Shown in pieces: positions 17,959 through 21,024 of a DNA stretch of 41,657 nt. The stretch is taken from contig NZ_JAAKZZ010000008.1 in NCBI RefSeq assembly GCF_011045075.1, forward strand, positions 1 to 41,657, in the 5' to 3' direction. This DNA comes from Streptomyces boncukensis. GTDB lineage: Bacteria; Actinomycetota; Actinomycetes; Streptomycetales; Streptomycetaceae. Made by a program: the position numbers and the translations under genes. The notes below the pieces were generated by a model that made no database searches, was not told where the DNA came from, and was given only the letters and a program-made list of their open reading frames with translations. Each line of letters opens with the position of its first letter. Positions within the stretch are counted from its first letter, which is position 1.

Positions 17959-20900
17959 GTGTCCGCACAAGCCGCATCACACTCCGAGCCCCTCCGGGAG
18001 CCGCTGAAGACCCTCCTCGGCGGCAGCACAGCGAAGGTCATGGCCGAGCAGCTCGACCTGCGCACGGTGGGCGACCTGCTGCACCACTACCCGCGCCGGT
18101 ACGCGGAGCGGGGCGAGCTGACCCGCCTGTCCGACCTCCCGCTGGACGAGCACGTCACCGTCGTCGCGCAGGTAGCCGACGCGCGGGTGCACACGTTCAA
18201 CCGGGGCAAGGGCCAGCGGCTGGAGGTCACGCTCACCGACGGCAGCGGCAGGCTGCAGCTCGTGTTCTTCGGCAAGGGCGTCTGGGGCGCCCAGCAGAAG
18301 CTGCTGCCGGGCCGGCGCGGCATGTTCGCGGGGAAGGTCGGCGTCTTCAACCGCAAGCTCCAGCTCGCCCACCCGGACTACATGCTGCTGGACGAGCAGA
18401 CCGACGGCGAGGACCTCGCCCGCTTCCAGCTCCTGCCGCTGTATCCGGCCTGCAAGCAGCTCCCCTCCTGGAAGATCGCGCAGGCGGTGCAGCTGGTGCT
18501 GCGCACCCTCCAGGCCACCGACTGGCGTGGCCTGGTCGACCCGCTGCCCGAGCCGCTCCGCACGGGCCGGGGCCTGGTCCCGCTCCCCGAAGCGCTGGTG
18601 AAGGTGCACGGGCCGCGCTCCAAGGCGGAGATCGCGGACGCGCAGCAGCGGCTCAAGTGGGACGAGGCGTTCGTCCTGCAGGTCGCGCTGGCCCGCCGGC
18701 GCGGCAAGGAGGCCGAGCTGCCCGCCGCCCCCCGCAAGCCGGTGGCCGGCGGGCTGCTGGACGCGTTCGACGCGCGGCTGCCGTTCACCCTCACCGAGGG
18801 GCAGCGGCAGGTCAGCCAGGAGATCTTCACCGACCTCGGCACCGAGCACCCCATGCACCGGCTCCTCCAGGGCGAGGTGGGCAGCGGGAAGGCCCAGCCC
18901 CTGGACTCGCTCGTCCTCACCCCGGACGGCTTTCGGAAGATGGGGGAGATCCGGGTCGGTGACCTGGTGGTGACGCCGTCGGGCGAGATCGCCCCGGTTG
19001 ACGGGGTCTTTCCCCAGGGGGAACGCGAGATCTGGCGTCTGGTGCTCTCGGACGGCAGCAGCGTCGAGAGCGATGACGAGCACCTGTGGATCGTCGGCAC
19101 GCGTTGCGGTCGGCACGGTGGAGACGCCCCGAAGGTCCTCTCCACCCGGGAGATCCGCGAGGACCTGACGACATCCGACGGGGAGCCGAAGTGGTATCTC
19201 CCGGCGGCCGTTCCCGTGGACCTCGGATGTGAGGGAAACCTGCCGCTGGACCCGTATCTCCTGGGCACGCTGCTCGGAGGCGGCACCTCTCGGCACCGGC
19301 CGCCGCACGACAGCTTCGTCCCTGACATGTACAAGAACGCTCCCGTCAAGGACCGGCTCGCTGTCCTTCAAGGGCTGATGGACGCGGGCGGAACGGTGGA
19401 CACGAGCGGATGCGGCCTGTCGTTCTGCTCCGTGTCCCGCGCGCTGGCCGAGGACGTGGCCTGGCTCGTCCGCTCGCTGGGCGGGTGCGCCCGGGTGCTG
19501 TCCGAAGGAGCGGCGTTCCCCGTGTCGGTGGACCTCCCCGCGCGGTTTCCGCCCTTCCGGCTGGAGCGCAAGGCCGGACGCCTGGCCGAGCGGGGTACGC
19601 ACGACAGGTTCCGCAGGGGCATCCGGCGGGTGGAGCGCGCGGGGCGCAAGCAGGCGCAGTGCATTCGCGTCCGCCATGAGGACAGGGCCTACGTCACCGA
19701 CAACTTCACGGTCACGCACAACACGATGGTCGCGCTGCGCGCGATGCTCACCACCGTGGACGCGAGCGGGCAGGCCGCGATGCTCGCGCCGACCGAGGTG
19801 CTGGCCCAGCAGCACCACCGCTCCATCACCGAGATGATGGGCGAGCTGGCCGAAGGGGGGATGCTGGGGGGCGCCGAGCAGGGCACCAAGGTGGTGCTGC
19901 TCACCGGCTCCATGGGCGCGGCGGCGCGCCGCCAGGCGCTGCTCGACCTGGCGACCGGGGAGGCCGGGATCGTGGTCGGCACGCACGCCCTGATCGAGGA
20001 CAAGGTGCAGTTCCACGACCTGGGCCTGGTCGTGGTGGACGAGCAGCACCGGTTCGGCGTCGAGCAGCGCGACGCGCTCCGCTCCAAGGGCAGGCAGCCC
20101 CCGCACCTGCTGGTGATGACGGCGACGCCCATCCCGCGCACCGTCGCCATGACGGTCTTCGGTGACCTGGAGACCTCCGTGCTGGACCAGCTGCCCGCCG
20201 GCCGCTCCCCGATCGCCACCCACGTGGTGCCCGCCAAGGACAAGCCGCACTTCCTCACCCGTACCTGGGAGCGGCTGCGGGAGGAGGCGGAAGGCGGCCA
20301 CCAGGCGTACGTCGTCTGCCCCCGCATCGGCGACGAGGACGAGCCCCCGGCGCGCAAGTCCGCGGGGTCCGCGGAGTCCGCGGAGTCCGTGGAGGACGAG
20401 GGGGAGAAGCGGCCCCCGCTGGCCGTCCTGGACATCGCGGAGCAGCTCTCCGGCGGCCCGCTGAGCGGCCTGCGCGTCGAGCCCCTGCACGGCCGGATGG
20501 CGCCCGAGGCGAAGGACGAGGTGATGCGCCGCTTCGCCGCGGGCGAGGTGGATGTGCTGGTGGCGACGACGGTCATCGAGGTCGGCGTCAACGTCCCGAA
20601 CGCCACCGGCATGGTCATCATGGACGCGGACCGCTTCGGCGTCTCGCAGCTGCACCAGCTGCGCGGCCGGGTGGGGCGGGGCTCGGCGCCCGGCCTGTGC
20701 CTGCTGGTCACGGACGCGCCCGAGGCCGCCCCGGCCCGCGCCCGGCTGGAGGCGGTGGCCGGGACGCTGGACGGCTTCGAGCTGTCCCGGATCGACCTGG
20801 AGCAGCGCCGCGAGGGCGATGTCCTGGGCCAGGCCCAGTCCGGGGTGCGCTCCTCGCTGCGGATGCTGACCGTGATCGAGGACGAGGACGTCATCGCCGC

Positions 20901-21024
20901 GGCCCGCGACGAGGCCACGGCGCTGGTCGCCGCCGACCCCGCGTTGGAGCGCCACCCCGAGCTGCGCACGGCCCTGGAAGCGCTGCTGGACGAGGAGCGG
21001 GAGGAGTTCCTGGACAAGGGCTGA
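17959..21024 (+). CDS. recG: ATP-dependent DNA helicase RecG, precursor with in-frame class 3 intein
   Basis: 1021-residue precursor from a GTG at 17959; removing the 277-residue insert leaves 744 residues, a normal RecG length. RecG remodels stalled forks and Holliday junctions. The N-terminal wedge/OB domain (LHHYPRRYAERGELTRL, LTDGSGRLQLVFFG) precedes a superfamily 2 helicase core. Motif I is LLQGEVGSGK (ending at residue 311) and resumes as TMVALRAM at 589; motif II DEQH is at 694-697; motif III TATPIPRT starts at 721; motif VI QLRGRVGRG is at 900-908. The C-terminal LSRIDLEQRREGDVLGQAQSG is typical of RecG. The insert splits Walker A between Lys and Thr, so ATPase activity should require splicing. 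A -10-like CAGGAT ends 6 bases before the start. Confidence 0.96.
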   Translation: MSAQAASHSEPLREPLKTLLGGSTAKVMAEQLDLRTVGDLLHHYPRRYAERGELTRLSDLPLDEHVTVVAQVADARVHTFNRGKGQRLEVTLTDGSGRLQLVFFGKGVWGAQQKLLPGRRGMFAGKVGVFNRKLQLAHPDYMLLDEQTDGEDLARFQLLPLYPACKQLPSWKIAQAVQLVLRTLQATDWRGLVDPLPEPLRTGRGLVPLPEALVKVHGPRSKAEIADAQQRLKWDEAFVLQVALARRRGKEAELPAAPRKPVAGGLLDAFDARLPFTLTEGQRQVSQEIFTDLGTEHPMHRLLQGEVGSGKAQPLDSLVLTPDGFRKMGEIRVGDLVVTPSGEIAPVDGVFPQGEREIWRLVLSDGSSVESDDEHLWIVGTRCGRHGGDAPKVLSTREIREDLTTSDGEPKWYLPAAVPVDLGCEGNLPLDPYLLGTLLGGGTSRHRPPHDSFVPDMYKNAPVKDRLAVLQGLMDAGGTVDTSGCGLSFCSVSRALAEDVAWLVRSLGGCARVLSEGAAFPVSVDLPARFPPFRLERKAGRLAERGTHDRFRRGIRRVERAGRKQAQCIRVRHEDRAYVTDNFTVTHNTMVALRAMLTTVDASGQAAMLAPTEVLAQQHHRSITEMMGELAEGGMLGGAEQGTKVVLLTGSMGAAARRQALLDLATGEAGIVVGTHALIEDKVQFHDLGLVVVDEQHRFGVEQRDALRSKGRQPPHLLVMTATPIPRTVAMTVFGDLETSVLDQLPAGRSPIATHVVPAKDKPHFLTRTWERLREEAEGGHQAYVVCPRIGDEDEPPARKSAGSAESAESVEDEGEKRPPLAVLDIAEQLSGGPLSGLRVEPLHGRMAPEAKDEVMRRFAAGEVDVLVATTVIEVGVNVPNATGMVIMDADRFGVSQLHQLRGRVGRGSAPGLCLLVTDAPEAAPARARLEAVAGTLDGFELSRIDLEQRREGDVLGQAQSGVRSSLRMLTVIEDEDVIAAARDEATALVAADPALERHPELRTALEALLDEEREEFLDKG
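18892..19722 (+). mobile_element. Class 3 (WCT) intein in the RecG P-loop, with dead endonuclease remnant
   Basis: 277 in-frame residues between GEVGSGK and TMVAL. Intein numbering: Ala1 (not Cys or Ser); block A-like LDSLVLTPDGFRKMGEIRVGD at 4-24; block B VESDDEHLW with His64 and Trp66 (B:10 and B:12); block F CIRVRHEDRAYVTDNF with Cys257 at F:4; block G VTHN ending His276-Asn277; +1 residue Thr. Trp, Cys and Thr form the class 3 triplet. The centre keeps LAGLIDADG traces, PYLLGTLLGGG (121-131) and LLQ-type GLMDAGG (161-167), but both catalytic Asp positions are Gly and only about 30 residues separate them. By hand count 34 of 277 codons end in A or T, against 9 of 311 in the upstream extein. 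Confidence 0.93.

Follow-up and report, generated by a model that had tools for sequence, protein, structure and literature searches.

The chromosomal recG gene of Streptomyces boncukensis is interrupted, between the Lys and Thr of its Walker A motif, by an in-frame insert that is almost certainly a class 3 intein. Class 3 is a known but uncommon intein class. Within the genus this one intein is found in all stages, namely intact, mutated, shortened, absent, and with its target codon changed, and the series sits in a housekeeping repair gene of bacteria known mostly from soil. The copy described here lies in the window, by which we mean the whole stretch of 41,657 nucleotides that was analysed, and all of its features are on the forward strand.

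Anatomy and class of the insert

The recG open reading frame (17959-21024) starts with GTG and encodes a precursor of 1021 residues. Subtraction of the 277 residues of the insert leaves 744, which is also the number of positions in NF008167, the NCBIfam RecG model; the product matches this model in two stretches with 1079.6 bits, against a cut-off of 995. The N-extein (17959-18891, 311 residues) ends in GEVGSGK, residues 305-311 of the precursor, which is the Walker A motif as far as its Lys. The insert (18892-19722, Ala1 to Asn277) follows as 277 codons without a stop, and the C-extein (19723-21021, 433 residues) resumes with TMVAL. The earlier note had proposed this placement, and the boundaries, the open frame and the length of the restored RecG all hold.

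When the exteins are joined they align without a gap, through the junction, with three intein-free recGs. The same insert is present at the same K/T site in 150 RecG loci (70 from the genus draw and 80 from a scan of named genomes, merged into 124 distinct rows), and with the gapless junction this excludes a chance origin. Only the open frame speaks for the insert being a RecG domain or some other kind of indel, which can hardly be the case; intein-free RecGs cross the junction without the insert, and its predicted fold is that of an intein. A domain or artefact was rejected on these grounds, and the alignment that the earlier note had set as a possible refutation revealed no structured RecG domain here in intein-free lineages. 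The neighbouring genes are housekeeping ones (YloV-like, RsmD, CoaD, ThiD and ThiL, the first at 368.8 bits being below its cut-off of 396.1) and thus give no pointer to a prophage. A single recG was found in the genome assembly; the other helicase match there is presumably Mfd.

Class 3 inteins are defined, in three papers, by the lack of a nucleophile at residue 1 and by a Trp at B:12, a Cys at F:4 and a Thr at G:5 (PMC5050341, PMC5222942, PMC3196547). The first residue of the insert is Ala, and not Cys, Ser or Thr, as it is in all 124 distinct homologs. In block B (His64-Leu65-Trp66, 19081-19089) Trp66 lies two residues past His64 and occupies B:12. Cys257 (19660-19662) is at F:4 and is the expected initiating nucleophile, a role given to this Cys in class 3 inteins by PMC5222942 and PMC3196547. 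The insert ends in the sequence THN (19714-19722), with Thr275 at G:5, His276 penultimate and Asn277 terminal, and is followed by the +1 Thr (19723-19725), which is the Walker A Thr of RecG and the putative C-extein nucleophile. Ala1, Asp61, His64, Trp66, Cys257, Thr275, His276, Asn277 and the +1 Thr are kept in 124 of 124 distinct RecG inteins, and from these residues we infer class 3 chemistry.

The earlier note had already listed Ala1, His64, Trp66, Cys257, the His-Asn end and the +1 Thr, and all are present. Its class call stands, although it took the T of the Trp-Cys-Thr triplet to be the +1 Thr rather than Thr275, since both are there. Sequence features, the predicted fold and the 124 homologs together support its main claim, that the Walker A motif of RecG holds a class 3 intein. 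The Pfam models LAGLIDADG_3 and Hint_2 match the intein weakly, below their cut-offs, and a tree of class-3-like inteins comprises 87 rows with no class 1 outgroup.

The structure of the intein with ten extein residues on each side, modelled from a 75-row alignment (pLDDT 90.1, pTM 0.89), has a predicted Hint fold. It superimposes on the class 3 DnaB intein of Mycobacterium smegmatis (6bs8) with a Z score of 18.7 and a deviation of 1.6 Å over 123 residues with 28% identity; the class 3 inteins 6riy and 6rix match its Hint part with Z scores of 18.7 and 18.4, and PI-SceI structures match the model with Z scores of up to 22.2. Class 1 inteins reach 15-18, so near to the class 3 scores that the fold cannot tell the class.

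Distribution, decay and movement

The intein query matches 121 of 392 Streptomyces genomes at E ≤ 1e-6. All 70 genomes with a listed match of E ~1e-39 or better have a RecG intein at the same site. Matches were listed down to E ~1e-24 and weaker RecG inteins could be missed; the count of strains proposed in the earlier note thus gives at least 70 carriers among the 392. A strict empty site with Met at position +2 is found in 204 genomes. Of the remaining 118, a RecG match is present in 114 and absent from 4, and no insert is seen at the site in the 110 of these 114 RecGs that were read, the other 4 being outside the read set. Five weaker-matching loci were read, and have PhoH (three) or DnaB (two) as hosts. 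In the named-genome scan there were 173 relatives, and the best 80 of these are all RecG inteins at this site (71 from Streptomyces, four from Lentzea, two from Saccharothrix and three from Actinomadura). A class-wide draw gave matches at E ≤ 1e-20 in 34 of 394 genomes; PhoH was checked as the host at 15 loci from outside the genus and fits at 14 of them, L324 being the exception; L315 does not fit DnaB and L308, L314 and L322 lay outside the parsed set.

The RecG intein is therefore not rare, and is widespread among related bacteria. The earlier note suggested RecG as a host possibly missing from catalogues; as worded this does not survive, given how common the intein is in the genus and that RecG appears in Table 1 (bacterial intein hosts) of PMC5874633, where the entry has no organism, site or class. 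The literature searched likewise gave no organism, site or class for a RecG intein, and no Streptomyces RecG intein; the surveys 10.1093/molbev/msv271 and PMC3133030 were outside its scope. The RecG intein is a well-populated addition to a known class.

Other class 3 inteins were seen in passing. Those in PhoH-family ATPases of many actinobacteria (L040, L043, L044, L328 and the 14 class-draw loci, which are among L304-L324) are at an MRGR/T site and are 331-360 residues long, and the three that were read have LLGDG and LLDSDG motifs. In L046 (same genome, contig C785:18000-22582) a DnaB has two class-1-like inteins, with Cys first and an HN/S end, one at the P-loop (PAMGK/S) and the other at RESG/S. 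Two other genomes of the genus (L041 and L042) have a class-3-like intein at this same DnaB P-loop site, which can thus be occupied by an intein of either class; the DnaB of L041 has a second intein at RESG. In another bacterial genome (L303, G658:C20) a helicase that we take, by resemblance, to be DarB/SNF2-like has a class 3 intein at GAGK/T that is 50-53% identical to that of the window.

The endonuclease part of the RecG intein varies greatly in its state of preservation, which was scored by alignment column and is approximate in strongly decayed copies. Full-length copies, of 336-342 residues, make up 73 of the 124; 58 of them have both catalytic Asp residues and 15 do not. The other 51 are shortened, to 239-327 residues, with both Asp residues in 6 and at least one lost in 45. 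The window copy is about 60 residues short and lacks the Asp in blocks C and E that characterises an active LAGLIDADG homing endonuclease. Gly130 replaces it in the block C remnant LLGTLLGGG (19258-19284) and Gly166 in the block E remnant LQGLMDAGG (19366-19392).

Substitution patterns follow this state. The pN/pS ratio of the endonuclease region is 0.28 in 24 randomly chosen intact copies, 0.65 in a clade of 24 dead copies and 0.64 in other short dead copies. The corresponding values are 0.18, 0.21 and 0.25 for the N-terminal part of the Hint domain (Hint-N), and 0.15, 0.43 and 0.28 for its C-terminal part, where the 0.43 of the dead clade against 0.15 in intact copies suggests that splicing may be less constrained in that clade. 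RecG itself has values of 0.21 and 0.31 in the two dead sets, near those of Hint-N. The GC content at third codon positions is 0.81 for the intein against 0.95 for RecG in intact copies, 0.88 against 0.98 in the window, and nearly equal in the dead clade (0.945 against 0.933), a pattern to be expected if the intein came from elsewhere and has since been resident for a long time. As judged from its sequence, the window copy looks like a late-stage resident, with its endonuclease dead and partly deleted and its splicing residues kept.

The trees of RecG and of the intein disagree. They include 57 of the 204 strict empties, and short flanks led to the removal of some rows, 2 of the 124 carriers among them. 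On the RecG tree of 179 rows (122 carriers and 57 empties), intein presence requires 31 changes, against a mean of 48 (range 41-56) in 200 shuffles; the short or full-length state requires 16, against 39 (31-45) when shuffled. Each alignment rejects the tree of the other, that of the intein by 2777 log units and that of RecG by 3348 (from 1000 replicates, a number flagged as low), and mutual rejection was again obtained with 10,000 replicates in five subsets of 24, the dead clade included. Recombination within recG or misaligned decayed parts could add to the conflict. Seven of the eight rows nearest to the window on the RecG tree are intein-free. The 24 dead copies group together as one clade on either tree, none of the empty recGs included there falls within it, and their mean pS is 0.19-0.37 for the intein parts against 0.27 for RecG. 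This one clade would fit vertical inheritance, but its internal topologies are rejected, as strict co-inheritance is by AU tests within it; the fraction of shared splits does not separate dead from intact sets.

We infer that the RecG intein family has spread by homing. It would have entered recG in this way, possibly carried by relatives on plasmids or in phages, and a homing cycle may run in the genus, in which many LAGLIDADG endonucleases are intact, many are decayed and most species are intein-free. At E ≤ 1e-3 the intein query has 530 matches among 50,697 phage records and 34 among 72,556 from plasmids, with the best place of each below 60% identity, and among viral contigs the best 80 of 91 relatives were kept, with 54% identity in the best segment. 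A recent phage or plasmid donor was considered and set aside, as these phage, plasmid and viral-contig collections contain no close one (best below 60%).

Codon +2 and its possible role in homing

The codon after the +1 Thr (19726-19728) is ATG, for Met, in the window, and is often a Leu codon in intein-free recGs. At this extein +2 position, ATG is present in 70 of 70 carriers from the genus draw, whereas Met is found in 205 of 314 empties; the 110 non-strict empties that were read have a Leu codon in 109 cases and Met in one. Leu is thus found in none of the 70 carriers and in 109 of the 314 empties (Fisher 6.5e-12). This association in Streptomyces carriers is new here.

The association is also seen when relatedness is taken into account. 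On a tree built without the site and 30 bases on each side, from 69 carriers (short-flank rows, 1 of 70 carriers, were dropped) together with 57 Met empties and 32 of the remaining 110, the +2 codon changes 24 times. In independent pairs from a proportional sample the intein side is the Met side by 8.3:0 of 23 (median p 0.008), and by 16.1:0 of 28 when all 236 rows, in which Leu empties are over-represented, are used. A plain scan of 763 variable sites places +4 second, and the stronger association of an upstream site, -468, indicates that phylogeny can create such signals.

We favour, tentatively, the reading that Leu alleles at +2 resist homing; the endonuclease would probably require ATG at extein +2 for homing, and Leu-coding alleles would escape. 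Flanking sequence is copied during homing repair, however, and the Met of all 70 carriers could also have come from the donor flank, through conversion of Leu alleles to Met. This seems somewhat unlikely, as synonymous differentiation between carriers and empties does not clearly peak near the site, as it would in a co-conversion tract. Residues at +2 can influence splicing too, and the same division of carriers and empties would result if Met were needed there for splicing, not homing, and Leu alleles were unable to host the intein. We consider this unlikely. Leu is present at +2 in 10 of 76 related viral-contig inteins, which may or may not splice, Val or Ile in the RecG inteins of all three carriers from Actinomadura and of one of the two from Saccharothrix, and Lys in a RecG intein on a Rhodococcus plasmid. 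The viral Leu and the Val and Ile of other genera argue against Met being needed for splicing in general, and favour recognition of the DNA target, or co-conversion.

A serine codon beside the site is TCN in 68 of 70 carriers; raw counts give 112 of 115 for carriers and 39 of 57 for Met empties. The TCN/AGY association was dropped, since independent pairs were not significant (median p 0.07 and 0.18).

The exclusion of +2 alleles and the endonuclease-decay series are of specialist interest, and both the homing cycle and the resistance of Leu alleles are directly testable in this system.

Splicing, possible regulation and known relatives

The window copy very probably splices, to judge from its residues. 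Cys257 would attack the Lys-Ala1 bond, after which the N-extein would move to the Walker A Thr at +1; cyclisation of Asn277, helped by His276, and an acyl shift would then leave GEVGSGKT intact. The ligated product would contain the peptide GEVGSGKTMVAL, and the precursor is expected to have no ATPase activity before splicing.

The window copy nevertheless departs from conserved residues more than most, and its splicing could be weak. It has some 8-9 departures at the 98-99 positions with a conservation of 93% or more among the other 123 rows, where the median is 1, and is the sixth most deviant of the 124; five of nine listed departures are in residues 250-263, around Cys257 and block F. With its dead endonuclease, it might be an intein in decay, with poor splicing or none, in which case the strain, with only one recG found, would have little active RecG. 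This is quite improbable, given that the reading frame and all of the catalytic residues tested are intact, that the product passes the cut-off of the RecG model, and that purifying selection on Hint-N in the dead sets is about as strong as on RecG (0.21 and 0.25 against 0.21 and 0.31).

Endonuclease-dead copies might persist because their splicing has become a conditional switch of RecG, for example through oxidation of Cys257. The class 3 intein in the P-loop of M. smegmatis DnaB is described as redox-controlled (PMC6195587), and peroxide inhibits N-cleavage by another class 3 intein (PMC7664689). A P-loop site that would block ATPase activity until splicing, the single dead clade with no empty recG inside, and the host-like codon usage and conserved Hint-N of that clade are all consistent with a switch. 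It is probably not the explanation, however, since the need for RecG alone accounts for the purifying selection and the tree contains just 57 of the 204 Met-type empty recGs. In addition, residue 60 (19069-19071), four before the block B His, is a second Cys in 117 of 124 copies and a possible redox partner of Cys257, whereas the window copy has Ser there. A wider picture, of an ongoing arms race between homing, immune Met-to-Leu alleles at +2 that RecG tolerates, dead endonucleases, and thiol-dependent splicing that gates the RecG ATPase, is doubtful as a whole; were it true, the thiol-dependent step could serve as a stress switch of the RecG ATPase. The compact class 3 inteins, of 239-277 residues and with varied loss of the endonuclease, also provide material for protein engineering.

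Among relatives on mobile elements, the nearest one found is in a RecG-family protein encoded by a mobilizable plasmid of Rhodococcus rhodochrous (WP_217580321.1, annotated as a helicase-related protein), with 51% identity at the same site. Its site (GDVGSGK/T) is like that of the window, and its intein has the class 3 residues and groups with the RecG inteins (97*). It differs in that the host is a plasmid-borne RecG paralog and the endonuclease motifs (GDG/DTDG) are intact; the paralog (L325:3103-6780) lies upstream of two integrase genes. The class 3 inteins in P-loop proteins of phages and viral contigs (TerL, Snf2/DarB-like helicases and others) are mostly at a GK/T site, as in the window, and often share with its intein an AQPLD start and a CIxV...THN end, but have other ATPases as hosts and are less than 60% identical to it. 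Among the viral contigs (L180-L259), class 3-like inteins are found in a wide variety of P-loop ATPases, in most cases at the GK/T, and simple matching finds the Trp-Cys-Thr pattern in 74 of 76 parsed copies.

The class 3 inteins of actinobacterial PhoH proteins are ~41-48% identical to residues 1-132 of the window intein, also have a +1 Thr and, in the three read, have the same Trp-Cys-Thr residues; they differ in their host, their MRGR/T site and their separate group on the tree. The mycobacterial members are mentioned in the Fig. 6 legend of PMC6195587. Another close parallel is that paper's M. smegmatis DnaB-1 intein (DnaBi1; PDB 6bs8), which shares with the window intein the class 3 residues, a DxxH block B and a P-loop site at GK/(T/S). 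It has the Hint fold predicted for the window intein (Z 18.7) and, like it, no working endonuclease, whereas its host is DnaB, its identity to the window intein is 28% over 123 aligned residues, and it is the window intein that keeps a LAGLIDADG remnant. The Cys in the GRPCY stretch of DnaBi1, which would correspond to the redox Cys48 of PMC6195587, aligns with Ile47 of the window intein.
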